Virus record (IMG/VR): IMGVR_UViG_3300047445_000035
Span: 1-51,293 of that record
Reading direction: 5' to 3' (one strand)
Length of the DNA: 51,293 nt
Source: a virus
Numbering within the stretch: position 1 is the first letter of the stretch; each line of letters begins with the position of its first letter. The translations under genes were made by a program, and so were the position numbers. Of the stretch, positions 8,037 through 28,782 are shown piece after piece. Below the pieces are notes generated by a model that worked only from the letters and a program-made list of their open reading frames with translations, had not been told where the DNA came from and searched no databases.

Positions 8037-8114
8037 CATTTCAGGCCAATGCCTCATTGATTGGGGCATTAACATGCAATGTCGCATGATCTAACATTAA
8101 TGGAGCACATTATC

Positions 8115-8651
8115 ATGGCCTTCGATAAAATTGTATTTGAACCACTGTTCAAGAAATCCGTAGCTAAGCTGGCATCTGCTGAAAAGGTTGTTAAGGCAGA
8201 GCTCTTGACGCTATCACGCTCTGTGCTGGAAGCGCACCACAGCACGGAAGATATTTCTTATATCAACCGTCTGATTAAGGCTCTGTCGCCTGTCAATCGC
8301 AAGGTGGCAGTGCTGTATTTCAAGCATTTCTCTGGCTTCCAATACAGCGAAGACACCCAGGAATTCACCCGTAAGGACAAGAAAGCCTATGAGGCAGCTA
8401 ATGCTGTGTCCAATGAATTCTTGGATGATCCGTTGAATAACATCTGGACTTGGGCAGAGCGTAATGTCGAAATGGAAGCTAAGCCCTTCGACTTGGCACG
8501 CATTAAGAAACAGTTTGAAAGCACGCTCAAGAAAGCTAAGGACAATGACATTAGCGAATTGGCAGTGCTGGAAGTGTTCATGGAAGCTGGCTTGTCCATG
8601 GATACGCTCATCGCCCTCATGGGTAAAATCGAAGGCAAGGCAGAGGCCTAA
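8115..8651 (+). CDS. Conserved phage-type early protein of unknown function
   Basis: 178 aa. The ATG at 8115 follows GGAGC by 9 bases; an upstream in-frame start at 8079 lies in the hairpin region and is less likely. The protein looks alpha-helical and charged. The stretch INRLIKALSPVNRKVAVLYF resembles a conserved region I remember from uncharacterised phage proteins, and EFTRKDKKAYE precedes a helical C-terminal half. No catalytic motif is visible. A copy of the GCTATCACG repeat lies inside at 8210 in a frame that does not read Ala-Ile-Thr. Confidence 0.75.
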   Translation: MAFDKIVFEPLFKKSVAKLASAEKVVKAELLTLSRSVLEAHHSTEDISYINRLIKALSPVNRKVAVLYFKHFSGFQYSEDTQEFTRKDKKAYEAANAVSNEFLDDPLNNIWTWAERNVEMEAKPFDLARIKKQFESTLKKAKDNDISELAVLEVFMEAGLSMDTLIALMGKIEGKAEA

Positions 8652-10126: not shown

Positions 10127-11902
10127 ATGTTTAAAATTGGTGATGTTGTAGCTCTTAAGCGTGAATTTGCACATAATTATGGTGCTGTTCATCCGGGTCG
10201 TGACTATACCGTTCTGAAAGTTAGCCCTAATGGTCGCTTCCAAGTGGATAACGGTAATGACTTTGCAGATTACATCCCTGAACGGTTTTCTCTTGTGCGT
10301 CCAGCTATTGTTCCTGCCGAAGGCGTTATTAAGCTCCGTGTAATCGAAGCCTATCGTCCTGCTCGTCTTCGCCTTGGTGACATTGTCACTGTTGCGAAGG
10401 AACATGCTACTACGTATCTCCTCGTCGAACACCCAGGTAAGCTGTTTAAGAAGGTACGGTTTGAGGTTGTACAGCAAGCTGTTCCTGCCCCCGTTCCTAA
10501 CATTCCTGCTCGTAGGGTGAAGATTGGGGATAAGATTAAAGTGGCTAATGTATATCGTGCTACTGGCCCACATGGTGGAGACAGGAAAGGTAATCCTTGG
10601 GGTTATACTGATAAGCTGCTGTCTCTTAACCAAGTAGTTACTGTCATGTCGGCTGAACCTGCTGATTACGGTGGCTATAAGGGAACAAAGATTAGGGTTG
10701 ATAAGGTTGGCTATAATTATTATTCCTATCCCCTCGATGCATTCGTGTTTGAGGATGGTTCCCTGATTGTAGGGGGCTTTGTACCTGCGGCAAAAGCTCC
10801 TCGTCCTGTTGGTGAGAACGTTAAGGCGGGTGAGAAGGTTGTTATTGTAAGCATTCCAGAAGTGTTTGCTGATAAATATCACCAGCGTCATAAGGTGAAA
10901 GACTCGTGCATTGGTAAGGTGTTTGAGATTAAATACGACTACACCACAGCACATAAAGACGGGCGATATGCCTATGTCTCTGGTATGGCTGCTCATGCCG
11001 GTCAAGACACCATCGCATTCCCAATTAAATGCTTGGTGTATGCAGACGAGGGCAGTGCTATCACGAATGCCAAGCCTGTCCCTCCTCCAAAGAAAGTGTT
11101 GCCTAACATATTCGATGAGATTGCTAAAGCTCCTACTGGTTCCCTTTGCCAGTACATCTACCTCAAGAAAGGGGCTGATGAATATATTGAAGACTTCTCT
11201 GCCCCTTGTTATGCCTCTCTGGGCCGTACAGGGGGCCCTGTAGAGCGTTTGGTGATTGGTATGGCTAAACCATATGCACGCCTCCCAGAACGCTCCCATG
11301 AGGCTTATAATCGCTGGCTGGAATATGTTGTAGAACAATCCCCATTCCGTTCTGCCTTCATCACTAAGACAGCAGATGAAGCTAAGAAGGGTTTGGAAAT
11401 GGATTGCTCCAAGAGCGTAGATGAAATCATCTGCTCTGCTACAGCTATGCGGGATGGCTATGAGCATAATGAGCGTCTGATTCCATTCACTCATTTCCTG
11501 GATGAAGGCTATTCAGGTCACACTGCCTATCTGCTGGCATTCATGCTGAACTACAATGCTGGTAAGTGGAGCGTATCTGGTATGTCTGATGGTCATAGCA
11601 ATATGGCTGGTGTTCAGAACATGGCTGAAATTATTAAGTTCTTTAAGCAGGGATACCATCGTCCTGAACTTAAAACTAAGAAGCCATTCAATGTAGGGGG
11701 CGGTGCGTATGGCTATTGGGTTAGCGATTGCATTACCAAGAATTACCATGGTAATGCAGTTAAGGGGGAATGTATGCGAGACTTCCTCATCCGTGCATCT
11801 GAAGCTAAGGTGGTAGGTGTAGGATGGAATCAGGCTGTCACCATCACCGAAGACAACGTAAAGAAACTGGCTGACACCCTCGAACAACTCATCAACGAAT
11901 AA
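10127..11902 (+). CDS. Large cassette protein with repeated SH3-like N-terminal modules and unknown C-terminal domain
   Basis: 591 aa, ATG with AGGAG 6 bases upstream. The N-terminal 300 residues look like four small beta-barrel repeats, each opening with a pattern such as FKIGDVVALK, LRLGDIVTVA, VKIGDKIKVA and VKAGEKVVIV, linked by proline-rich spacers (APVPNIPARR, PVPPPKK). Such KOW/SH3-like modules usually bind protein or nucleic acid. The C-terminal 270 residues are of a different, alpha/beta character with HTAYLLAFMLNYNAGKWSVS and NVGGGAYGYWVSDCITK; I recognise no family. First gene of the cassette, closely followed by the class I glutaminase, so it may scaffold or supply the substrate of the ligases. 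Confidence 0.8.
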   Translation: MFKIGDVVALKREFAHNYGAVHPGRDYTVLKVSPNGRFQVDNGNDFADYIPERFSLVRPAIVPAEGVIKLRVIEAYRPARLRLGDIVTVAKEHATTYLLVEHPGKLFKKVRFEVVQQAVPAPVPNIPARRVKIGDKIKVANVYRATGPHGGDRKGNPWGYTDKLLSLNQVVTVMSAEPADYGGYKGTKIRVDKVGYNYYSYPLDAFVFEDGSLIVGGFVPAAKAPRPVGENVKAGEKVVIVSIPEVFADKYHQRHKVKDSCIGKVFEIKYDYTTAHKDGRYAYVSGMAAHAGQDTIAFPIKCLVYADEGSAITNAKPVPPPKKVLPNIFDEIAKAPTGSLCQYIYLKKGADEYIEDFSAPCYASLGRTGGPVERLVIGMAKPYARLPERSHEAYNRWLEYVVEQSPFRSAFITKTADEAKKGLEMDCSKSVDEIICSATAMRDGYEHNERLIPFTHFLDEGYSGHTAYLLAFMLNYNAGKWSVSGMSDGHSNMAGVQNMAEIIKFFKQGYHRPELKTKKPFNVGGGAYGYWVSDCITKNYHGNAVKGECMRDFLIRASEAKVVGVGWNQAVTITEDNVKKLADTLEQLINE

Positions 11903-11912
11903 GGAGAAACAC

Positions 11913-12530
11913 ATGAAGAAGGTATTGATTATTAATGGCAGTGGTGCTTACATCCAGTTGTTTAAGGAACTGGGCTTTGAAGTGACACATAATGCGGGGA
12001 AAGCCAACTTGGCTGTGTTCACTGGTGGTGCCGATGTTACACCGGCCCTGTATGGTGACAAGCAACATCAATTTACTGGCATTGATTCTCACCGTGATGA
12101 GGAAGAGGCAATGTGGTTTAACACTCTTCTTGAACTGAATGTCCCTATGGTGGGTATCTGCCGTGGTGGTCAGTTCCTCAATGTAATGTCTGGTGGTCGT
12201 ATGTATCAGCATGTAGGCAATCACACCCGTTCCCATTCCATCACTGACCTGTACACAGGTGAAACTGTGTATGTCTCTAGTACACATCACCAGATGATGA
12301 TGCCATCTGAGCAAGCTGAGGTTATTGCTGTAGCTTCTGAGGGTGGCTTCCGTGAATGGTATGACGGCCAGGTATTCAAGCGGGATGTGTCTGACCAAGA
12401 CTATGAGGTAGTCTATTACAACCATACCAATGCTCTGTGCTTCCAGCCCCATCCTGAATTCAATGGTGCTGAATACGAAGGTATGAAGCGTTATTTCCAA
12501 CATCTGCTGTCTGCATATCTGGGGGTGTAA
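11913..12530 (+). CDS. Class I glutamine amidotransferase-like protein (peptidase C26 / PuuD type)
   Basis: 205 aa, ATG after AAGGAGAAACAC. The triad is intact: Cys83 in GICRGGQFLN, the nucleophile elbow, and His180 with Glu182 in PHPEF. FTGGADVTP at 36-44 is typical of the family. Members either release ammonia from glutamine or hydrolyse gamma-glutamyl amides, as PuuD does with gamma-glutamyl-GABA. In this cassette it could feed ammonia to a ligase or trim a gamma-glutamyl product; which one cannot be decided. No separate synthetase domain is fused. The family call is firm. Confidence 0.88.
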   Translation: MKKVLIINGSGAYIQLFKELGFEVTHNAGKANLAVFTGGADVTPALYGDKQHQFTGIDSHRDEEEAMWFNTLLELNVPMVGICRGGQFLNVMSGGRMYQHVGNHTRSHSITDLYTGETVYVSSTHHQMMMPSEQAEVIAVASEGGFREWYDGQVFKRDVSDQDYEVVYYNHTNALCFQPHPEFNGAEYEGMKRYFQHLLSAYLGV

Positions 12531-12531
12531 T

Positions 12532-12906
12532 ATGACTGAACATGAGTTTGCTATTAAGTATGGCTTCCACAGCACTTACTACCTCCGTCAATCGGATGAC
12601 CATCTCCCTTGCTTTGCTCATCGTTGGTCTGTAAACGACAACATTAAGACGGAGAAAGCTATCACGGAATACATTCAGGTGGCTACGGATAATGATGACA
12701 ATGATGTTATTGTCTTCTCCGTCACTGAAAATGACAAGGGATGGAACGCTTGGAAAGCTTACGCTAAGAAATATCCTCGTAAGTTTAAGGTGGTAGAGGG
12801 TGGAAGTATTCACGGTAAGTATCTGTGCCGTATGTACATCTACACTAAGCCTCCTAAGAAACGTAAGTTCCATCCCGATAACATCAAGGCTTTTAAACCT
12901 CGTTAA
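12532..12906 (+). CDS. 124-aa cassette protein, unknown
   Basis: Starts one base after the glutaminase stop. Sequence features: MTEHEFAIKYGFHSTYYLRQ at the start, an acidic middle (QVATDNDDNDVIVFS) and a basic end (TKPPKKRKFHPDNIKAFKP). It contains a GCTATCACG copy at 12658 reading Ala-Ile-Thr. No domain recognised. Its tight placement between two cassette enzymes suggests a role in the same pathway, but that is only guilt by association. Confidence 0.7.
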   Translation: MTEHEFAIKYGFHSTYYLRQSDDHLPCFAHRWSVNDNIKTEKAITEYIQVATDNDDNDVIVFSVTENDKGWNAWKAYAKKYPRKFKVVEGGSIHGKYLCRMYIYTKPPKKRKFHPDNIKAFKPR

Positions 12907-12914
12907 GAAACATT

Positions 12915-12991
12915 CTCACCTTAGCTCAGTTGGATAGAGCACGAGCCTTCTAAGCTTGTGGTCACTGGTTCGATTCCAGTAGGTGAGGCCA
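12915..12991 (+). tRNA. tRNA-Arg (anticodon UCU)
   Basis: 77 nt cloverleaf: acceptor CTCACCT / AGGTGAG, D arm GCTC...GAGC, anticodon stem CGAGC / GCTTG with loop CTTCTAA (anticodon TCT), T arm ACTGG / CCAGT with TTCGATT, discriminator G and an encoded CCA. It decodes AGA, a rare codon in many proteobacteria. It sits inside the cassette, between two coding genes and in the same direction, so it is probably cut from the operon transcript. Confidence 0.93.
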
Positions 12992-13007
12992 TTAATTGGA
13001 GAATGTC

Positions 13008-13112
13008 ATGTTTCAAACTATTTGTGAAGCACTATCTGTCGTAGCTTTTGCTACGATTATTGTAGGGATTTGGGTATTAATTTGGGCTTTCATTAGAGCT
13101 ATTCGGGAGTAA
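13008..13112 (+). CDS. 34-aa single-pass membrane protein
   Basis: ATG at 13008 with GGAG about 7 bases upstream, stop TAA at 13110-13112. Residues 9-28 (LSVVAFATIIVGIWVLIWAF) form one membrane helix followed by IRAIRE. It lies between the tRNA and the first ATP-grasp gene, three bases before the latter. Too short for routine gene calling. It could anchor a cassette enzyme at the membrane; that is speculation. Confidence 0.6.
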   Translation: MFQTICEALSVVAFATIIVGIWVLIWAFIRAIRE

Positions 13113-13115
13113 GGT

Positions 13116-13805
13116 ATGAAAATCTGTGTTCTCTATCCCGATGCATGTAGTGAGAGTGCTAGGGAATTAGCTAGGGCTTTAGGAGCCACAGCAGCTAATC
13201 CGTACAAAGACTATGCACCAAGGGCTGATTGGTATTTCAATTATGGTACGGAAGAGAATGCTTCCCTCCGTAAGCAGATTAATACAGGTGGTGCTGTTCT
13301 TCGTTGTATTGATAAGCATCGTACATTTGAAAAGCTTAGTCATGCTGGTGTTCCTGTTCCAACATTCACTACTGATTCAAAGGTAGCTAGTAAATGGGAA
13401 CGTGTTGTATGTCGTTCTACCGTTGAAGGACGGGGTAATGAGGGTATGTCCTATTGGTATCAATGGGATGGTGGCAAGCCACGAGGTAAATTATTTACCG
13501 AATATTTTGAGCACGTAGCTGAATACCGCATCGTTGTATTCATGGGTAAGGTTGTTGGTCGTTATCGTAAGGACATTCAGCCTAACGGTAATTGGAATTT
13601 CACATTGATGACCTTGATTGGCTTCAGGGATGTGGATAGGAGCTGTATACAGGCCGCACAAGCCCTTGGAATTGATTATGTGGGGTTTGATGTGCTTGAG
13701 AATAAAAAGGGCGTATACGTCGTTCTAGAGGCTAATAGCGGCCCTATTCTTACTGAGGAAAGTAAGAAGGCTATTGTTAAACATTTTAAACAACTGAATA
13801 AATAA
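13116..13805 (+). CDS. ATP-grasp ligase 1 (RimK-like)
   Basis: 229 aa. ATP-grasp enzymes join a carboxylate to an amine through an acylphosphate. Visible marks: CIDKHRTFEKL at 64-74 where the central domain begins, TEYFEHVAEYRIVVFMGKVV at 128-147 with the EYR-V-GK pattern, and VLEANSGP at 203-210, in which Glu205 and Asn207 match the metal-binding E-x-N; Asp192 is likely another ligand. The N-terminal 60 residues form a short Rossmann-like start (MKICVLYPDA). At 229 aa it is shorter than RimK (about 300) but resembles ATP-grasp 2 of this cassette (17661-18434), suggesting an old duplication. Confidence 0.85.
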   Translation: MKICVLYPDACSESARELARALGATAANPYKDYAPRADWYFNYGTEENASLRKQINTGGAVLRCIDKHRTFEKLSHAGVPVPTFTTDSKVASKWERVVCRSTVEGRGNEGMSYWYQWDGGKPRGKLFTEYFEHVAEYRIVVFMGKVVGRYRKDIQPNGNWNFTLMTLIGFRDVDRSCIQAAQALGIDYVGFDVLENKKGVYVVLEANSGPILTEESKKAIVKHFKQLNK

Positions 13806-13815
13806 GGAGCATCAT

Positions 13816-15123
13816 ATGTGTGGCATCGTTGGTATGGCAGGTAATATTCTCCCAGTGCATGAACGTGCAATGAAGACGCTGTTAGTTCTTGATTCCCTCC
13901 GTGGTGAGGACAGCACCGGGATTGTGTGTGTAGGTAAATGGAAGGATTGTGAAGTTAAGCTAGCCAAGAGTGTTGGCGATCCCTTTCAATTGTTTGACCA
14001 TAAGAGCTATGAGAATGCTATGCAAGGTTCTCAACGTGTCATCATTGGTCACAATCGTGCTGCCACGAGTGGTGCTGTAACACGTAATAATGCTCATCCA
14101 TTTGATCATCCTACCCTTGTTGGTGTACACAATGGTACGCTGAAGAACAAGCATGTCCTGGATGATGCTAAGGATTATAAGGTGGACAGTGATAATCTGT
14201 ACCACCACATTGAGAAGAGTGGGCTTCGTGACGCCATGAATAAGGTTGATGGTGCATGGGCCTTGGTATGGTGGGATAAGGTTGAGCATGAGCTTAACAT
14301 CCTGCGTAATAAGGAACGTCCTCTGTGGACTTGTGTAACTGCGGATAAGGATGGCAATCCTGATTTCAATGTAATCTTCTGGGCTTCTGAACCTTGGATG
14401 TTGCGGGTAGCGCTATCACGTCACGGTATTCAGACGGATACGCCAGTAGAAATTGATGAAGATGTACATGTACGTGTACCTATTCAGGATGGTGGTAAGC
14501 TTGGTAAGCCCACTATGGTGCCAATGGCTGGTACGTATAAGGATGCTTACCAAAATTTTACTCAAGGCCATGGCTATAGGGGGAATGTCCATCAACTGCC
14601 TAACAACTCCCATACCAAGCCTCAGGAGGACAAAACGCTCAGCGTAACAAAAAAGCTGGTAGAAGAAAGTCAAAGCTTCGTGGCAAGTTGCAACAACAAA
14701 TATCTGCAAGCGAAGAACGTGGTGTTCGAGATCATGGAAGGACGCAACGACAAGCGGGGAGAAGAATACTTGTTGATGTTTGACAAGAACATGCCTTATG
14801 ACGAGATTCGTGTTTATCCACGTAAGGATGACGAGATTTGGGACTTCGTAGGGGGTGAGTGTCAAGCAGACATTCAAGGCTATGCACAGCACGATCTGAC
14901 GCCTTCTAAGGGCTATTACACAGTGAGGGCAACCACTGTGAAGATTCTCCCTGTGTTGCTGGAGAAAACCCCTCCAAAAATCATGAAGGGTCAAACCTGT
15001 GACTGGTGTTCTGACCCACTGGATGAAAAGGTTTACAACCGCACTACAACTACCGGGGGCTGTTTCTGCCCTCATTGTGCAAAAGAACGTGATGTAACTT
15101 CGATGGTTACTTTTTCTAATTAA
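13816..15123 (+). CDS. Class II (Ntn) glutamine amidotransferase with C-terminal zinc-ribbon-like tail
   Basis: 435 aa. MCGIVG at the start exposes Cys2, the Ntn nucleophile, after removal of Met1. RGEDSTGI (29-36), GHNRAATSG (78-86) and HNGTL (105-109) are the glutamine-binding and oxyanion motifs of the GlmS/PurF glutaminase domain. The sugar-isomerase or PRTase domain usual in those enzymes is missing. Instead, residues 250-435 are unfamiliar and end in a putative zinc ribbon (Cys395, Cys398, Cys418, Cys421). It should make ammonia for a partner, most likely one of the ligases downstream. Ten bases separate it from ATP-grasp 1. Confidence 0.88.
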   Translation: MCGIVGMAGNILPVHERAMKTLLVLDSLRGEDSTGIVCVGKWKDCEVKLAKSVGDPFQLFDHKSYENAMQGSQRVIIGHNRAATSGAVTRNNAHPFDHPTLVGVHNGTLKNKHVLDDAKDYKVDSDNLYHHIEKSGLRDAMNKVDGAWALVWWDKVEHELNILRNKERPLWTCVTADKDGNPDFNVIFWASEPWMLRVALSRHGIQTDTPVEIDEDVHVRVPIQDGGKLGKPTMVPMAGTYKDAYQNFTQGHGYRGNVHQLPNNSHTKPQEDKTLSVTKKLVEESQSFVASCNNKYLQAKNVVFEIMEGRNDKRGEEYLLMFDKNMPYDEIRVYPRKDDEIWDFVGGECQADIQGYAQHDLTPSKGYYTVRATTVKILPVLLEKTPPKIMKGQTCDWCSDPLDEKVYNRTTTTGGCFCPHCAKERDVTSMVTFSN

Positions 15124-15134
15124 GGAGCTTTAAA

Positions 15135-15932
15135 ATGTCTCAGCTGATTCTCGTTGGTGCTGATCCGGAAGTGTTTGTTAAACAGAATGGTGTATTCCGT
15201 TCTGCCTACAACCTCATCAAAGGTGATAAGAAAAACCCATATAAGGTGAAGAATGGCGCAGTACAAGTGGATGGTATGGCTTTGGAATTTAATATCGATC
15301 CAGCTGCTACCGAAGATGAATTCTGCATTAATATTCAATCTGTGTATGACCAGCTCAAAGCTATGGTACCAGATTATCAGGTGATTGCCACACCTGTTGC
15401 AGACTTCCCATTTGAATATCTGAAAACTCAGCCCAAGGAAGCTCTTGAACTGGGTTGCGATCCAGACTTCAATGCTTGGAATGGCCAAGCCAATCCTCGC
15501 CCTGATGGTGAGCGTCCTATGCGTACTGCATCTGGTCACGTTCACATTGGTTTTACTAACGGGGAAAGCAGCAATGACTACAATCACGTACAGAAATGTA
15601 ATGCTGTAGTTAAACAACTCGACTTCTTCCTGGGCTTGCCTAGCCTGATTTATGACGGTGATGTACGTCGTCGTGAAATGTATGGTAAGGCTGGTGCTTG
15701 TCGTTACAAGCCTTACGGTGTGGAATATCGTACCCTGTCTAATGCTTGGCTGAATAGCCGGGAACTGATGGCATGGGTATTTCGCTCCGCCCAAAAGGGT
15801 GTTCAGGAACTGATTGCTGGTAATTCTCTGTATGAGAAGTATGGGGACATCCAAGCTATCATTAATTCCTCGGACGTTAAAGAAGCCAAGAAGATTATCA
15901 AAGCTGAGAAACTGGAGATTTGCTATGGCTAA
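15135..15932 (+). CDS. phiEco32-type COOH-NH2 ligase (glutamine-synthetase fold)
   Basis: 265 aa. Matches the family known as phage phiEco32-like COOH-NH2 ligase type 2: GADPEVF (8-14), VDGMALEF (45-52), SGHVHIGF (133-140) and RRREMYGKAGACRYKPYGVE (178-197), the metal- and ATP-binding strands of a glutamine-synthetase-like barrel. Enzymes of this superfamily use ATP to form an amide between a carboxyl and an amino group or ammonia. Substrate unknown. It follows the class II glutaminase by 11 bases and overlaps the next gene by 8, so a glutaminase-ligase pair is likely. Confidence 0.85.
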   Translation: MSQLILVGADPEVFVKQNGVFRSAYNLIKGDKKNPYKVKNGAVQVDGMALEFNIDPAATEDEFCINIQSVYDQLKAMVPDYQVIATPVADFPFEYLKTQPKEALELGCDPDFNAWNGQANPRPDGERPMRTASGHVHIGFTNGESSNDYNHVQKCNAVVKQLDFFLGLPSLIYDGDVRRREMYGKAGACRYKPYGVEYRTLSNAWLNSRELMAWVFRSAQKGVQELIAGNSLYEKYGDIQAIINSSDVKEAKKIIKAEKLEICYG

Positions 15933-16542
15933 GCCACCAAGCATGGAAGATTTGAAGACAATGTATCAGAATTGTCTGGTTATTGTTAAAAATAAGCCAT
16001 ATCTTGTCAACCGAATCTATGACCATCTGCGTTATGGCGTATTCGATTTGTCTGACCAGCGTAACAAGGACATCACTGTTACGTCTCACACTGATCTGAA
16101 GGCTCCAAGTCGTTGCTTTGGCTTTGTGAACATTGGTGGTGTTGTCTATTATCTGTCACGCCTCCCGGTACGTCGCTATAAGGCTGGTGCATGTGGTAAT
16201 GACAATATGCAATTTGAATCGCCTGATGACTATCGTGGCATTGCAGCTAACGTGAATGTTGATCCAATGTACAACCTCACTAGCCCACATGTAGCTGACA
16301 CAATCTACAATCGCTATCCATCCATTGTTGATGCTGTGGAACGCTGCAAGGCTGGTGATAAGATTGTTGCCTTCGACCGTCAATTCGCTGTTGACCATCG
16401 CGGCTATGTCTATTACAAGCTGTCTTGTGTAGGCAAAGTGGCTAAGCCTAAAACCGTTTACGACATTGCCTTTACCAAAGGCCGTGAATATCTCATCACT
16501 CTTCTGGACAACAATCATGAAAAAAGTATTCCAACTGCTTAA
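15925..16542 (+). CDS. 205-aa cassette protein between the two amidoligases, unknown
   Basis: The ATG at 15925 overlaps the stop of the upstream ligase and has GGAG 8 bases upstream. It starts MAKPPSMEDLKTMYQNCLVI and contains PSRCFGFVNIGGVVYYLSRL, RRYKAGACGNDNMQF and VAFDRQFAVDHRGYVYYKLS. It has a mixed alpha/beta look with many aromatic residues; no family is recognised. The gene after it overlaps by 26 bases, so all three are translated together. It is always a candidate for substrate binding or for being the acceptor that is modified. Confidence 0.75.
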   Translation: MAKPPSMEDLKTMYQNCLVIVKNKPYLVNRIYDHLRYGVFDLSDQRNKDITVTSHTDLKAPSRCFGFVNIGGVVYYLSRLPVRRYKAGACGNDNMQFESPDDYRGIAANVNVDPMYNLTSPHVADTIYNRYPSIVDAVERCKAGDKIVAFDRQFAVDHRGYVYYKLSCVGKVAKPKTVYDIAFTKGREYLITLLDNNHEKSIPTA

Positions 16543-17659
16543 GAAAGACGCCCCAATCAAGGGTGAAGTAGGTATTGAAATCGAATGTGAAGGCAAGAAC
16601 ATGGTGCCTGTCGATTTCGGTGGTTGGAAGACGGAGGATGATGGTTCCCTGCGGGGCCATTTCCCTGATTCCCGTGCTGAATATGTACTGGCCAAGCCTA
16701 TTATGGCTAAGGAAGTGCAAGAGAAGGTTGACTTCCTGCGTACTGAACTGAAGGAAGCAACGCTTGACTTCTCCTTCCGTACCTCTGTTCATATACACAT
16801 CAACGTACAAGACCTCACTGAAGCTCAGGTGATGAATTTTGTGTACACCTACCTACTGCTGGAAGAACCAATGGTGAACTTCTGTGGACGGGAACGTAAG
16901 GGCAATCGCTTCTGTCTGCGTATTGCCGATGCAGAAGGCATCATCGGCTATTACAGCAAGATGTTTGCTAAGGGCTTGGCCTACATCATGGCTGTGAATG
17001 AGAATGACCTTCGTTATGCTGGCATCAACCTGGCTAGCCTGAAGAAATATGGCAGCATTGAATTCCGTTCTATGCGTGGCTGTATGGATGCTGAAACGCT
17101 CCACATCTGGGCTAATAGCTTGATGGCTATTAAAAAATATGCGGAAGAGAAGAAAGTTCCTCTGGATATCAATCGGGAGTTTAGCAATGGTGCTCCTCGT
17201 GACTTCCTCCGCACTGTCTTGGGTGAATACGCTGTGTATTTTGAATATCCTCGTATGGCTAAGGAGATTCAGCGTAGCTTCTCTCTGACTCTTGAGCTTC
17301 CTTATATGTATAAGGAACAAGTGTACAAGGAAGAAGTGGCCTTGGAGGCTAAACAAAAGAGGGCTGACAATATTCCAGAACATCTTGTAGATCAACACAA
17401 GGAATTCATGGTAAGCCATATGTGGAACGGAGTTATCGGGGATAACATGTCAGACTTCGAGATTCGTGGAGCTCGCCTCTTTGTCAAGTATCAAGGTAAC
17501 TGGGTTGATGCAACCATTGCAAACAAGAAGGACATTGCCTTTGTAGAAGCTTGGCAAGCAGCTAAACAACCTGCACCAGCACAACCAGAGCCAGAACAAG
17601 CTCCTGCTGTACGTCCAGCCCGTCCTCGTCGTCCTGTTGCTCAACCAGTGGAGTTCTAA
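16517..17659 (+). CDS. Amidoligase (COOH-NH2 ligase, glutamine-synthetase fold) with proline-rich tail
   Basis: 380 aa from the ATG at 16517 (weak GGA site; overlaps the previous gene by 26 bases). GEVGIEIECEG (16-26), DDGSLRG (41-47), EYVLAKP (55-61), SVHIHINV (90-97) and GINLASLKKYGSIEFRSMRG (169-188) are the order and residues of the amidoligase family predicted to form amide links using ammonia or an amine. About 25 residues at the C-terminus are rich in Pro, Ala and Arg (PAPAQPEPEQAPAVRPARPR), an unstructured tail that could bind a partner. A second glutamine-synthetase-fold ligase lies two genes upstream, so two different amide bonds may be made. Confidence 0.87.
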   Translation: MKKVFQLLKKDAPIKGEVGIEIECEGKNMVPVDFGGWKTEDDGSLRGHFPDSRAEYVLAKPIMAKEVQEKVDFLRTELKEATLDFSFRTSVHIHINVQDLTEAQVMNFVYTYLLLEEPMVNFCGRERKGNRFCLRIADAEGIIGYYSKMFAKGLAYIMAVNENDLRYAGINLASLKKYGSIEFRSMRGCMDAETLHIWANSLMAIKKYAEEKKVPLDINREFSNGAPRDFLRTVLGEYAVYFEYPRMAKEIQRSFSLTLELPYMYKEQVYKEEVALEAKQKRADNIPEHLVDQHKEFMVSHMWNGVIGDNMSDFEIRGARLFVKYQGNWVDATIANKKDIAFVEAWQAAKQPAPAQPEPEQAPAVRPARPRRPVAQPVEF

Positions 17660-17660
17660 C

Positions 17661-18434
17661 ATGAAGATTTATTCCTACAACAATGGCTCGGCTAGTGCGA
17701 AAGCACTGGCTGCTGCCCTCAACATCAAGCTGGTTAAACATGAAGGAAAGCCTCTCCGCTTTAAAGGCCCTCTTATTAATTGGGGCAATAGCAAGCCTAT
17801 TGCTCGTCATATTGAATGTGGGGGCTGTCTCAATCCACCCGATGCCGTTAGGAACGCTGTAAACAAACTACAAGCGTTTAAATTAATGGAGGGAAAGGTA
17901 GCCCTACCGGGCTGGACAGAAGACCGTGAAGAGGCTATAAAGTGGCTTGCTGGGGATTTTGATGTAGTTGTCCGACATAAGCTTAATGGTCACAGTGCAG
18001 AAGGGCTGGAGATTGTTAAGCACAATGATCCAGATGTTATTCCATTTGCCCCTCTCTACACCAAGTACATCAAGAAAGACCAGGAATGGCGTATTCACGT
18101 ATTCAAAGGGAAGGTGTTCTTTGAACAGCGTAAAGCTCGTAAGAAGGATGTTCCTGATGAAGAAGTGAACTGGCAGGTACGTAACTTGAAGGGTGGTTTC
18201 ATCTATGCCCATCAGGATGTACAAGCAAGTGAGGAAGTGAAGAAGCAAGCTATCATGGCTATTGATGCATTGGGGCTTGATTTCGGAGCTGTAGACATCA
18301 TCACTAACAAGCGTGGAGAAGCTTATGTCCTCGAAGTTAATACAGCCTGTGGGCTCGAAGGTACCACGCTGGCTAAATACGTTGAACAGTTTAGAGGTTT
18401 GGAAGCCAACAAGCCTCTGGAGAACAATCCGTGA
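17661..18434 (+). CDS. ATP-grasp ligase 2
   Basis: 257 aa, ATG at 17661 with GGAG 8 bases upstream. YTKYIKKDQEWRIHVFKGKV (133-152) matches the EYRIVVFMGKVV region of ATP-grasp 1, and YVLEVNTACGLEGTT (222-236) holds the metal-binding E225-x-N227; Asp212 is the preceding acidic ligand. The N-terminal 60 residues contain WGNSKPIARHIECGGCLNPP, a cysteine-bearing stretch absent from ATP-grasp 1. Substrate unknown, probably a peptide or amino acid. Last enzyme of the cassette. Confidence 0.85.
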   Translation: MKIYSYNNGSASAKALAAALNIKLVKHEGKPLRFKGPLINWGNSKPIARHIECGGCLNPPDAVRNAVNKLQAFKLMEGKVALPGWTEDREEAIKWLAGDFDVVVRHKLNGHSAEGLEIVKHNDPDVIPFAPLYTKYIKKDQEWRIHVFKGKVFFEQRKARKKDVPDEEVNWQVRNLKGGFIYAHQDVQASEEVKKQAIMAIDALGLDFGAVDIITNKRGEAYVLEVNTACGLEGTTLAKYVEQFRGLEANKPLENNP

Positions 18435-20919: not shown

Positions 20920-21379
20920 TCTAGAACAACATTATAAGGAGAATCGTCTAAGGCTTCTTAAGCGTTTGACATTCCGAGCAGGTACGGAATGGGATGCTGA
21001 GGACGTTCTCCATGATGCATATGAGCGTGCCCTTAAATATGCCTCTAGCTTCAACGGAGAGGGCTTTGGAGCGTGGTTTAGCACAATCCTGAACAACTCC
21101 CTTAAGGAACATAAGAACGCCTCTAAAGGCCATTATGTCAGCTTGGATGACATAGAAGAAGAGGGCATCCCTTGTCCTCATTATAGCGATCGAATGTTGA
21201 AGGAGGTCTACCAACTTATCAAAGCTAAGACTCCTGCACAACAAGAGATTTTGTTCCTCTACATGAAAAACAACTACACTGCTGTAGATGTAAGTAGGAT
21301 TACTAATTATACCTATTCTAATTGTCATCAAACCATTAGACGATTTAGAGAGGAAATTAAGGAGAGGTATATGAATTGA
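20909..21379 (+). CDS. ECF-type sigma factor-like protein
   Basis: 156 aa. Residues 26-70 (WDAEDVLHDAYERALKY, then FGAWFSTILNNSLKEHKN) fit sigma region 2 of extracytoplasmic-function sigma factors: the AEDVLHDAYERAL helix binds core polymerase and the W-F-x-x-ILNN part reads the -10. Residues 108-156 (TPAQQEILFLYMKNNYTAVD, then YTYSNCHQTIRRFREEIKER) fit the region 4 helix-turn-helix. It probably redirects host RNA polymerase to phage promoters; phage phiEco32 does this with its sigma-like gp36. Its stop overlaps the TTG start of the polymerase (TTGA). Confidence 0.8.
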   Translation: MSSDLEQHYKENRLRLLKRLTFRAGTEWDAEDVLHDAYERALKYASSFNGEGFGAWFSTILNNSLKEHKNASKGHYVSLDDIEEEGIPCPHYSDRMLKEVYQLIKAKTPAQQEILFLYMKNNYTAVDVSRITNYTYSNCHQTIRRFREEIKERYMN

Positions 21380-23256
21380 AAATATGTGTAGCTGACGTCG
21401 AAGCGAATGGATTCCTACGACAAGCTACAAAGATTCACTGTGGCGTATTCAAGGATGTAAACACTAAGGAAGTTGTTTCTTTCCGTCCTCATCAAATTCA
21501 AGAAATGCTACATTACATGGACACAATCGATGTAATGATTGTACATAATGGATTTGGTTATGACTGGCCTTTGCTTAAACGCTTGTATGGATATGAATAT
21601 AAGGGCAAGAAAGTAGATACGCTCGTTATGAGTCGCCTATTCAATCCTAAGCGTCAAGCTCCGTACATTTGTCCGAATAAGAAAGCTCCTCACTCTATTG
21701 AGGCTTGGGGTTATCGTGTTGGACGAGGGAAGCCTGAACATAATGACTGGGAAAACTTCTCTGAAGAAATGCTACATCGCTGTGTAGAAGATGTAGAAAT
21801 CCTTGATTTGGTTTACCAAGAGCTTCTTAAAGAGATGCGTGGTGGATATTGGAAACCTGCCACTATGCTGTCCTTTAAATTGTTTGAAAACCTGGCAGCA
21901 CAGGAAGACTATGGATGGCTAGTTGATAAGCCTTACATGGAGAAATGTGTTAGTCAGCTTACTAAATGGATCGAGCGAATCGATAAAGCCCTAGCTCCTG
22001 CTCTTCCATTAATTATGGAGGTACAAGAGAATAAGAAAGATGGGGAATATCTATTCGTCAGAAAACCCTTCCTCAAAAGTGGAAGATACTCCGAAGCCTG
22101 TAATAAATGGATTAGTGATTGCAATCTTGATATGGACGTTCGGCCCGTTGCTGGGCCTTTTACTCGCATTCTATTTCGTCCAGTAGATTTAAATAGCAAT
22201 CTCGAAACTAAGGACTATCTATTAGCTGAAGGATGGGAACCTCTTGAATGGAATTACAATGATGAAGGAGAACGAACAAGTCCTAAGATGTCTAAAGATG
22301 ATCCGTTTGAAGGAATTAACGGTAAGATTGGAAAGCTTGTTGCTAAGCGTGTCCAATGTAGACAAAGACGATCCATCGTTGAAGGACTTATCCAGCTTAT
22401 ACGTGAAGACGGTAGAATTCCATCTGCTGTTGCAAGCCTTGCTGTTACAGGAAGAGCAACACATAGGAACATCGTAAACATCCCAGGAGCCAAAAGCTTC
22501 TATGGGAAACAGATGCGTAAGATGTTTATTGCTAAGGAGGGATTTGTACTTGTAGGTACTGACTCAGATGCATGTCAGATTCGTATGTTGTGTGGACGGA
22601 TGAATGATCCCGTATATACAGACAACGTCCTTAACGGAAAGAAAGAAGATGGAACAGACATCCATAGCGTCAATATGCGAGCAGCTGGACTCCCTGATAG
22701 AGACTCTGCAAAAACCTTCTTTTACGGATTCCTGTTCGGTGCAGGAGATGCAAAGGTTGGCAAAATCGTCAAGGGAACTGCTGCACACGGTCGTATTCTT
22801 AAAACTCAATTCCTCGAAGGACTCCCTGCTCTCGGCAAGCTCATGGAATCCCTCCAAAACGAATGGAGAGCAACAGCCAAAAAGCGATTCAACGCTAAGT
22901 TTAATCGAATGGAATACTACGACGGATACATTACAGGACTTGACGGTAGACCAATCCTCGTACCATCCGAACATCAAGTGCTAGTGTATCTCCTACAATC
23001 TGATGAAGCAATTATGATGCAGGCTGCTTACAATAAGTTTTGTAAGGATATGGCTAAGCGTTATACATGGGGAGTTGATTATGGGGTTGTATGCTGGTAT
23101 CACGACGAGTTCACGGCTGAGGTTAAAGAAGAAATTGCGGAGGAGGTTAAGACACTTTCTGAAGCGGCAATTAAATGGGCAGGAGAGTTCTATAAGATTT
23201 CATGCCCTCACTTGGGTCAAGGGAAGATTGGCTCTAACTGGTACGACATCCATTAA
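21376..23256 (+). CDS. Family A DNA polymerase with 3'-5' proofreading domain (T7 type)
   Basis: 626 aa, replicative polymerase. It starts with TTG at 21376, GGAGAGG 8 bases upstream, overlapping the sigma stop. Exo I: DVEANG with Asp7 and Glu9; Exo II: HNGFGYDW (57-64); Exo III: CVEDVEIL near 137. Polymerase motif A: GTDSDACQIRML near 393, with Gln where Pol I and T7 have Glu; motif B: RDSAKTFFYGFLFGAG near 447; motif C: YHDEF near 575 with the catalytic Asp. Lacks the thioredoxin-binding loop as far as can be judged from length (T7: 704 aa), so processivity may come from elsewhere. Confidence 0.93.
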   Translation: MKICVADVEANGFLRQATKIHCGVFKDVNTKEVVSFRPHQIQEMLHYMDTIDVMIVHNGFGYDWPLLKRLYGYEYKGKKVDTLVMSRLFNPKRQAPYICPNKKAPHSIEAWGYRVGRGKPEHNDWENFSEEMLHRCVEDVEILDLVYQELLKEMRGGYWKPATMLSFKLFENLAAQEDYGWLVDKPYMEKCVSQLTKWIERIDKALAPALPLIMEVQENKKDGEYLFVRKPFLKSGRYSEACNKWISDCNLDMDVRPVAGPFTRILFRPVDLNSNLETKDYLLAEGWEPLEWNYNDEGERTSPKMSKDDPFEGINGKIGKLVAKRVQCRQRRSIVEGLIQLIREDGRIPSAVASLAVTGRATHRNIVNIPGAKSFYGKQMRKMFIAKEGFVLVGTDSDACQIRMLCGRMNDPVYTDNVLNGKKEDGTDIHSVNMRAAGLPDRDSAKTFFYGFLFGAGDAKVGKIVKGTAAHGRILKTQFLEGLPALGKLMESLQNEWRATAKKRFNAKFNRMEYYDGYITGLDGRPILVPSEHQVLVYLLQSDEAIMMQAAYNKFCKDMAKRYTWGVDYGVVCWYHDEFTAEVKEEIAEEVKTLSEAAIKWAGEFYKISCPHLGQGKIGSNWYDIH

Positions 23257-27351: not shown

Positions 27352-28045
27352 TATCGAAGTAACACTAATCGATCATATGGGTTCAGACCTTAGCGTTGTT
27401 AATGCTGCTAGGGTGAGTTTTGATAAGGAGAGCGAGTGGGAGCATATTAGTATTGTTGAGGGAGAGATTCTTAAACAATCAGATGCTAAGCTCATCAACT
27501 ACCTAGCCAAGCATAAACACTTCTCCCCGTTCAATCATGCTTTCCTGAGCTTCCGTGTTAAGGCCCCCATCTTCGTAGCAAGGCAATTGGTTAAACATAA
27601 ATTCATGCCTTGGAATGAAATCAGTAGGCGGTATGTAGATAGTGAGCCTGAGTTTTATTTCCCTAAATACTGGAGAGAGAAAGGGGAGAATGTAAAGCAA
27701 GGTAGTGGGGAGGGCCATACACCTAATTCTTATATTGAAGTTGGATATCGTTGCGATTACGCAGATGTAAAAAAAGAAGTTAATGAACGAGAACTAACTA
27801 AATATTTACTTCAGATGTATAAGCAGAAACTACAAGATGGCTGCTGCCCTGAACAAGCCCGTATGGTGTTGCCTCAAAACACAATGACTGAATGGTATTG
27901 GAGTGGCTCCCTTGGTGCATTCCTAGATATGCTTGTCCTCCGTCTAGACCCACATACACAGAAGGAAACTCGTGACGTTGCTGTATTGATTGCTGAACAC
28001 GTATCAAAACTATTCCCCGTATCCTATAAGGCTCGACTTAATTGA
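27338..28045 (+). CDS. thyX: Flavin-dependent thymidylate synthase
   Basis: 235 aa from the ATG at 27338. Makes dTMP from dUMP with methylene-tetrahydrofolate and FAD/NADPH. The ThyX signature reads VKHKFMPWNEISRRYVD (R-H-R replaced by K-H-K, as I recall from other phages), preceded by VARQL and HFSPFNHAFLSFRVKAP. QARMVLPQNTMTEWYWSG and FLDMLVLRLDPHTQKETRD complete the substrate site. Independent of host ThyA, it boosts thymidine supply together with the reductase downstream. Its TGA overlaps the TTG of the next gene. Confidence 0.93.
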   Translation: MKIANIEVTLIDHMGSDLSVVNAARVSFDKESEWEHISIVEGEILKQSDAKLINYLAKHKHFSPFNHAFLSFRVKAPIFVARQLVKHKFMPWNEISRRYVDSEPEFYFPKYWREKGENVKQGSGEGHTPNSYIEVGYRCDYADVKKEVNERELTKYLLQMYKQKLQDGCCPEQARMVLPQNTMTEWYWSGSLGAFLDMLVLRLDPHTQKETRDVAVLIAEHVSKLFPVSYKARLN

Positions 28046-28782
28046 AAATTCTCTTTCTCGATATCGAAACTGCCCCTACCACAGCTTATGTCTGGGGTAT
28101 GTGGGAACAGAATGTAGGCATGAATCAGATTGTAAAACCTGGCTATGTTCTCTCTTACGCTGCTCATTGGCTAAATTCTGATGAGGTTTTGTATAATTCC
28201 ATCCAAAGAATCGATAAAAGAACATTCCTACAATCGATTCATGAGCTTCTGACTGAAGCAGATGTTGTTGTCCATTATAACGGGAAGAAGTTTGACATTC
28301 CCACAATCAATCGTGAATTCGTACTGGAAGGAATGCTTCCTCCTGCTAATTATAAGCAGATTGACCTACTGACGGTAGTACGTAAACATTTCAAATTCCC
28401 TCACAATAAGCTGGACTATGTCTCTAGAGCATTGGGCTGTGGTGGTAAACTGAAACATGCTGGCTTTGAAATGTGGGTTGGGTGTATGAATGGAGACCAG
28501 GATGCTTGGCAACAAATGCAGGAGTATAACATTGAGGATGTTGTCATTCTTGAGAGGCTGTATCGTAAGCTGCTTCCTTGGATTAACAATCATCCCAATC
28601 ATGGTTTGTACGCTGATGTGGCTGATGTTTGTCCTAATTGTGGTGGGGTTCACCTGCAACGACGAGGATACAGCTACACTGCTGCTGGAAAGTATCAGCG
28701 CTACCAGTGCAACGATTGTGGAAGTTGGAGTCGTTCTAAGAAAACTGTGGCTGTGAAAGGAATCCTTGGTAATGCAGTTTAA
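28042..28782 (+). CDS. DEDD-family exonuclease with C-terminal zinc ribbon
   Basis: 246 aa, TTG start at 28042 overlapping the thyX stop. RNase H-like fold: LFLDIETAPT (Asp6, Glu8), VVHYNGKKFDIPTINREF near 82-99, and EYNIEDVVILERLY near 162-175 give the DEDD acids of YprB-type and DnaQ-type exonucleases. The last 50 residues hold a zinc ribbon, CPNCGG and CNDCGSWSR. Substrate could be RNA or DNA; a role in host nucleic-acid salvage fits the surrounding nucleotide genes. Confidence 0.82.
   Translation: MKILFLDIETAPTTAYVWGMWEQNVGMNQIVKPGYVLSYAAHWLNSDEVLYNSIQRIDKRTFLQSIHELLTEADVVVHYNGKKFDIPTINREFVLEGMLPPANYKQIDLLTVVRKHFKFPHNKLDYVSRALGCGGKLKHAGFEMWVGCMNGDQDAWQQMQEYNIEDVVILERLYRKLLPWINNHPNHGLYADVADVCPNCGGVHLQRRGYSYTAAGKYQRYQCNDCGSWSRSKKTVAVKGILGNAV

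Follow-up and report, generated by a model that had tools for sequence, protein, structure and literature searches.

An expanded amidoligase cassette with a probable gamma-glutamyl hydrolase in a Zobellviridae-like phage genome

Gene content of the locus

Nine genes form a rightward run on the + strand at positions 10127-18434 of the window (the whole 51,293-bp stretch of viral DNA analysed here), occupying 8308 bp, or 16.2% of it. The initial annotation had described one such run, with overlaps, as about 16 percent of the genome, and this proved accurate. All nine ORFs were confirmed on the + strand, ribosome-binding-like sequences precede most of them, and two gene pairs overlap (15925/15932 and 16517/16542). 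Corrected starts were assigned to P7, the unknown between the two ligases (15925), and to the amidoligase (16517).

The block opens with P1 (591 aa; 10127-11902), in which N-terminal KOW/SH3-like sequence repeats, recognised by eye, are followed by a C-terminal domain (11099-11902). Next to it lies a class I amidotransferase-fold protein of the PuuD/peptidase C26 type, a probable gamma-glutamyl hydrolase (11913-12530; Pfam Peptidase_C26/GATase class I, 8e-20). Then come the ORF of the accessory protein P3 (124 aa; 12532-12906) and, in an accessory slot, a tRNA-Arg (TCT) gene detected by ARAGORN (12915-12991), which the initial list of nine genes had missed. P3 was present in 8 of the 143 loci examined and is placed elsewhere relative to P1 in one locus (L067); over 61 bases, the tRNA shares 93% identity with a tRNA-Arg of Vibrio phage Kuja. 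P4 (13116-13805; Pfam RimK/R2K), an additional ATP-grasp protein from a distinct lineage, precedes the class II (Ntn) glutamine amidotransferase (13816-15123; Pfam GATase_6, 5e-15). The latter is the predicted ammonia supplier; its solved relatives are GlmS/PurF (1e-18), its C2 is kept in all 23 rows with a letter at that position, and it carries a C-terminal CxxC...CxxC.

Two ligases follow. The phiEco32-type COOH-NH2 ligase (PF14395; 15135-15932) matched Pfam COOH-NH2_lig at 6e-9, over the cut-off, and phrog_3815 at 1e-92, while the Amidoligase_2 ligase (PF12224; 16517-17659) matched Pfam at 4e-7, also over the cut-off, and phrog_7469 at 2e-64. There are 22 invariant columns over 30 relatives in the former and 12 in the latter, and in both, the charged motif residues vary little or not at all among relatives. 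Pfam and PHROGs thus bear out the two families of what had been annotated as two glutamine-synthetase-fold ligases; the common fold itself is a matter of published classification, and the two profiles aligned to each other with an hhalign probability of 1.5%, over the HxH motif alone. Sequence search returned no solved-structure relative for either ligase.

In most loci, the two ligases flank P7 (205 aa; 15925-16542; phrog_11055, 2e-23), a conserved companion. Its AlphaFold2 model (pLDDT 93) has a small N-terminal beta-barrel that is weakly SH3/KOW/Sm-like when compared with the PDB (Z about 5 over about 52 residues), which gives no usable fold assignment and does not thereby prove a new fold. 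P7 diverges faster than the COOH-NH2 ligase (13-52% versus 28-77% identity to the copies studied here), and a binding or scaffold role would be our guess. The block closes with P9, the main RimK-like ATP-grasp ligase (17661-18434; phrog_2599, 8e-83).

At the sequence level, the catalytic motifs are intact, as first reported, their residues being invariant or nearly so across the 26-39 aligned relatives of each protein. The search against Pfam and PHROGs found no Pfam family for P1, P3 and P7, the three proteins initially listed as unknown; P1 nevertheless reads as a cassette-specific family (see below).

The terminase large subunit frame stays open through the contig ends (1-1144 and 50863-51293), so the genome is closed, being either circular or circularly permuted. 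Judged from the cassette, whose nearest named relatives are Zobellviridae, this 51.3-kb phage genome appears Zobellviridae-like. The contiguous, one-strand block adjoins replication genes, with a primase-helicase (18944), a sigma-like factor and a DNA polymerase directly downstream. The N-terminal exonuclease-like part of the polymerase (21376-23256) also hits the family to which a separate gene for an exonuclease subunit belongs (28042-28782), ~5 kb downstream. Upstream of the cassette, 8079-8651 encodes a protein whose HEPN-like match is weak and falls below the cut-off (E 0.005), and a 1571-aa protein encoded at 37352-42067 matches phrog_18427 (E 5e-240). Promoter and terminator scans performed no better than shuffles. 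When the cassette DNA was searched at the nucleotide level, no close relative emerged; the matches were limited to a short amidotransferase stretch and the tRNA-Arg.

Linkage, distribution and published relatives

Among 50,697 phage records, 317 matched the COOH-NH2 ligase, 334 the amidoligase, 324 the class II enzyme and 314 the ATP-grasp protein, the host make-up of these four core-member match sets being near-identical. In 67 well-flanked loci, we found the amidoligase 64 times, the ATP-grasp and class II proteins 63 times each, P7 60 times, the class I protein 59 times and P1 46 times. The cassette genes stand together on one strand in all 67 of these loci, which excludes chance grouping and confirms the co-occurrence in related phages on which the first reading depended. 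Motif patterns for the ligases, derived from the phage family so that remote bacterial relatives could escape them, gave 14 loci in 84,980 species genomes versus at least 592 in viral contigs; several of the 14 are phage-sized contigs with the whole block. PF14395 was absent from 14 control genomes. Because of this disproportion and the empty controls, the cassette is, as far as these sequence surveys indicate, a pathway specific to phages and not host metabolism that they have borrowed.

Two main gene orders were observed. The first, P1-I-II-ligase-P7-amidoligase-grasp, is of the Zobellviridae type; the second, I-ligase-P7-amidoligase-II-grasp, is LUZ24-like, with class I sometimes missing.

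The block belongs, as an expanded version, to the known phage amidoligase ("peptidoglycan modification") cassettes, a kind of system that has already been published. The initial annotation was right in relating it to sets known from comparative genomics, as the same set recurs in named phages and in 314-334 records for core members, but it missed the name and proposed role of the module. In the literature, it is called a seven-gene peptidoglycan modification cassette and is predicted to stop superinfection or prepare lysis (PMC5498523, PMC6256558, PMC11945000, PMC10580990). The same literature traces the module to Iyer 2009 and Hardies 2013, with RIO-1, PA11, CW02, LUZ24, phiEco32 and Salmonella 7-11 as members (cited in PMC5498523, PMC6256558, PMC11945000). 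We found the set, or most of its members, in similar order in TC6 (PA11 type), T4S1, CW02, Klyazma, LUZ24, phiEco32, RIO-1 and GAP52.

Like the module of RIO-1, PA11, CW02, LUZ24, phiEco32 and 7-11, the block combines a COOH-NH2 ligase, P7, an Amidoligase_2, a RimK-like ATP-grasp protein and a class II enzyme on one strand just upstream of the primase-helicase. Unlike that module, it has a PuuD-type protein and no cyclotransferase, an added ATP-grasp lineage, P3 and tRNA-Arg before the class II gene, and a long N-terminal extension of P1. With the Zobellviridae cassettes (TC6/PA11, T4S1, Klyazma), it shares the order P1 - class I - class II - COOH-NH2 ligase - P7 - amidoligase - ATP-grasp, but it also carries the P4 lineage, practically absent from named phages. 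Hundreds of phages carry the module, among them therapeutic candidates against Pseudomonas, and it takes up about one sixth of this genome.

Apparently interchangeable members and a probable hidden one

Two glutaminases had been annotated in the block. The class II enzyme does look like an ammonia supplier, whereas the class I protein clusters with PuuD/C26 gamma-glutamyl hydrolases and behaves as if interchangeable with gamma-glutamyl cyclotransferase. Its best solved relatives, 3fij (6e-25) and PuuD 6vtv (3e-13), come ahead of ammonia-supplying subunits, and its triad C83/H180/E182 is invariant in 27 rows. By these comparisons, it is closest to PuuD-type gamma-glutamyl hydrolases and is probably a hydrolase itself.

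Scored with a cyclotransferase profile seeded with four of the cassette phages, 92 well-flanked loci comprised 68 with class I and no cyclotransferase, 14 with both, 10 with cyclotransferase alone and none with neither (Fisher 3e-7, a value that treats the 92 loci, related by descent, as independent). At full sensitivity, the ten loci lacking class I again yielded no class I protein and gave cyclotransferase scores of 71-198 bits, although two of them are the same sequence and three had supplied profile seeds. On a quick ligase tree, the absence of the class I gene requires about four changes, at least three of which are forced by well supported branches. Gamma-glutamyl cyclotransferase (PF06094) is absent from the genome studied here; published lists name it in some cassette members, not all. 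Since no locus of the 92 lacks both proteins and all ten class I-less loci carry the cyclotransferase, the cassette appears to require one of two gamma-glutamyl-cleaving enzymes and gamma-glutamyl trimming appears indispensable, the chemistry being deduced from the presence pattern. Such a pattern narrows the substrate question to gamma-glutamyl amides.

The two ATP-grasp enzymes were correctly recognised from the start. K69, E142, R144, D212, E225 and N227 are kept in P4 and P9 in alignments of their relatives, and both proteins are closest to RimK-type glutamate ligases, the solved relatives of P9 being RimK-type alpha-L-glutamate ligases (7e-16). In a quick tree, P4 falls in a clade of 19 rows (SH-aLRT 100) apart from P9, which has its own supported set. 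Eleven P4-clade loci carry both kinds, and in six others, whose downstream sequence extends for 6.9 kb or more, P4 stands alone; on the ligase tree, this pattern needs several gains or losses. The sole clear relative of P4 in named phages is in MW202697 (32%), the other matches listed being mostly P9-type genes at 24-32%. From the loci with P4 alone, the gains or losses and the single clear named relative, we read P4 as a mobile alternative or addition, and the present cassette is an expanded copy.

In the C-terminal 267 residues of P1, C361, R442, E446 and H490 are invariant in 30 of 30 aligned sequences, which share 12-32% identity. The AlphaFold2 model of this domain (pLDDT 92, pTM 0.91) found no match in the PDB (best E 0.38; Z at most 3.2 in a second search), which does not in itself prove a new fold. 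Against predicted viral structures, it gave 16 matches at E<=0.001, half of them without a name; the named ones are from CW02, CVT22, RIO-1, Aeromonas 4_4572 and LAh_8, Cronobacter GAP52 (two) and Proteus 3H10_20, and cassette genes turned up in each of these phages or in its genus. The P1-matching genes of RIO-1 and GAP52, identified by length and profile score, lie directly upstream of the cassette. Because tblastn retrieved only three records with the P1 C-terminal domain and one with P7, profiles and models are needed to follow these proteins. We read P1 as a hidden, cassette-specific member, as the alignments and models suggest, and perhaps a thiol enzyme. Its domain would mark a core protein that standard annotation calls "hypothetical".

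GAP52 has two adjacent P1-like proteins upstream of its cassette (GAP52_086 and GAP52_085; locus L073, 3652-5480). The pairs phiEco32 gp87/gp88 and LUZ24 gp14/gp15 lie at the corresponding position and could be divergent relatives; their kinship to P1, proposed from position and a Cys-aromatic-Gly motif, scored below significance and was set aside. Relative to the earlier descriptions consulted, the PuuD-type/cyclotransferase pattern, the P1 domain and the second ATP-grasp lineage are additions.

A proposed pathway and its alternatives

Hydropathy plots revealed no clear membrane segment or signal in any block protein, so the substrate is probably cytoplasmic. The reading that we favour, with some reserve, is a cytoplasmic pathway of gamma-glutamyl/peptide ligation and trimming, with peptidoglycan precursor peptides as the likeliest target; its reactions, step order and timing, and any benefit to the phage, are what we infer from the gene set. 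Expression of the pathway would precede or accompany replication. Ammonia would be released from glutamine by the class II enzyme, and the two amidoligases and the RimK-like ATP-grasp enzymes would spend ATP to couple carboxyl groups either to ammonia or to the amino groups of amino acids or peptides. A gamma-glutamyl group would be removed by the PuuD-type protein or, in other phages, by the cyclotransferase, while P1 and P7, as fast-evolving companions, would probably recognise or present the substrate. None of the sequence features singles out peptidoglycan; small peptides or metabolites, or a protein, would be the other candidate targets.

Known systems offer partial parallels. MurT/GatD (PMC3267633) and AsnB/LtsA amidate peptidoglycan by passing glutamine-derived ammonia to an ATP-dependent ligase that acts on wall precursors. 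The mechanism proposed here would likewise feed glutamine-derived ammonia to an ATP-dependent ligase, but the block holds no Mur-ligase-like protein and its ligase families differ from those of MurT/GatD and AsnB/LtsA. As in the E. coli Puu pathway (PuuA and PuuD), a ligase of the glutamine-synthetase superfamily, by published classification, is paired with a PuuD-type hydrolase; unlike that pathway, the block shows no oxidase or aldehyde dehydrogenase, and it has two ligases together with ATP-grasp enzymes.

A possible, though less probable, alternative is that the product of the cassette is a small gamma-glutamyl-linked metabolite or peptide acting in the cell (an effector, an anti-defence agent, or a redox or nitrogen store) and that the wall is left unchanged. 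The presence of a PuuD-type hydrolase or cyclotransferase in every well-flanked cassette would suit it well. PuuA/PuuD-like protect-and-release or gamma-glutamylamine chemistry needs a gamma-glutamyl-cleaving enzyme. The cytoplasmic look of all block proteins is equally in keeping with such a product; however, no linked transporter, regulator or receptor gene was seen, and the published proposal is wall modification (PMC5498523).

We consider it rather unlikely that the cassette modifies a host or phage protein by attaching glutamate or other residues to it, the way RimK acts on ribosomal protein S6. The affinity of both ATP-grasp proteins to RimK-type glutamate ligases points that way, as does the prediction that phage R2K ATP-grasp enzymes modify host proteins (PMC4431377). 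Nevertheless, the alignments show no conserved acceptor tail in P1 or P7, and two amidoligases, a class II enzyme and a gamma-glutamyl hydrolase exceed what this reaction needs.

It is similarly doubtful that the class I protein works as a normal glutaminase subunit feeding a ligase, which would give the block two ammonia suppliers. The class I amidotransferase profile does match it, and there are weak scores to the GATase subunits of CPS and GMP synthase, yet the best solved relatives are of the PuuD/C26 type. Moreover, absence of class I goes with the cyclotransferase in ten cases out of ten, and a cyclotransferase cannot supply ammonia. A role in base modification was given little weight, as the thymidylate synthase is an ordinary ThyX and no modification gene was noticed among the scanned proteins.

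We tentatively advance a more specific scheme, which we would not yet expect to hold as a whole. The P1 C-terminal domain might be an unrecognised Cys-Arg-Glu-His enzyme fold exclusive to the cassette, and the core chemistry a gamma-glutamyl protect-modify-release cycle, in which the PuuD-type hydrolase and the cyclotransferase would be interchangeable for release, and P4 and P9 would be interchangeable ligases of different specificity.
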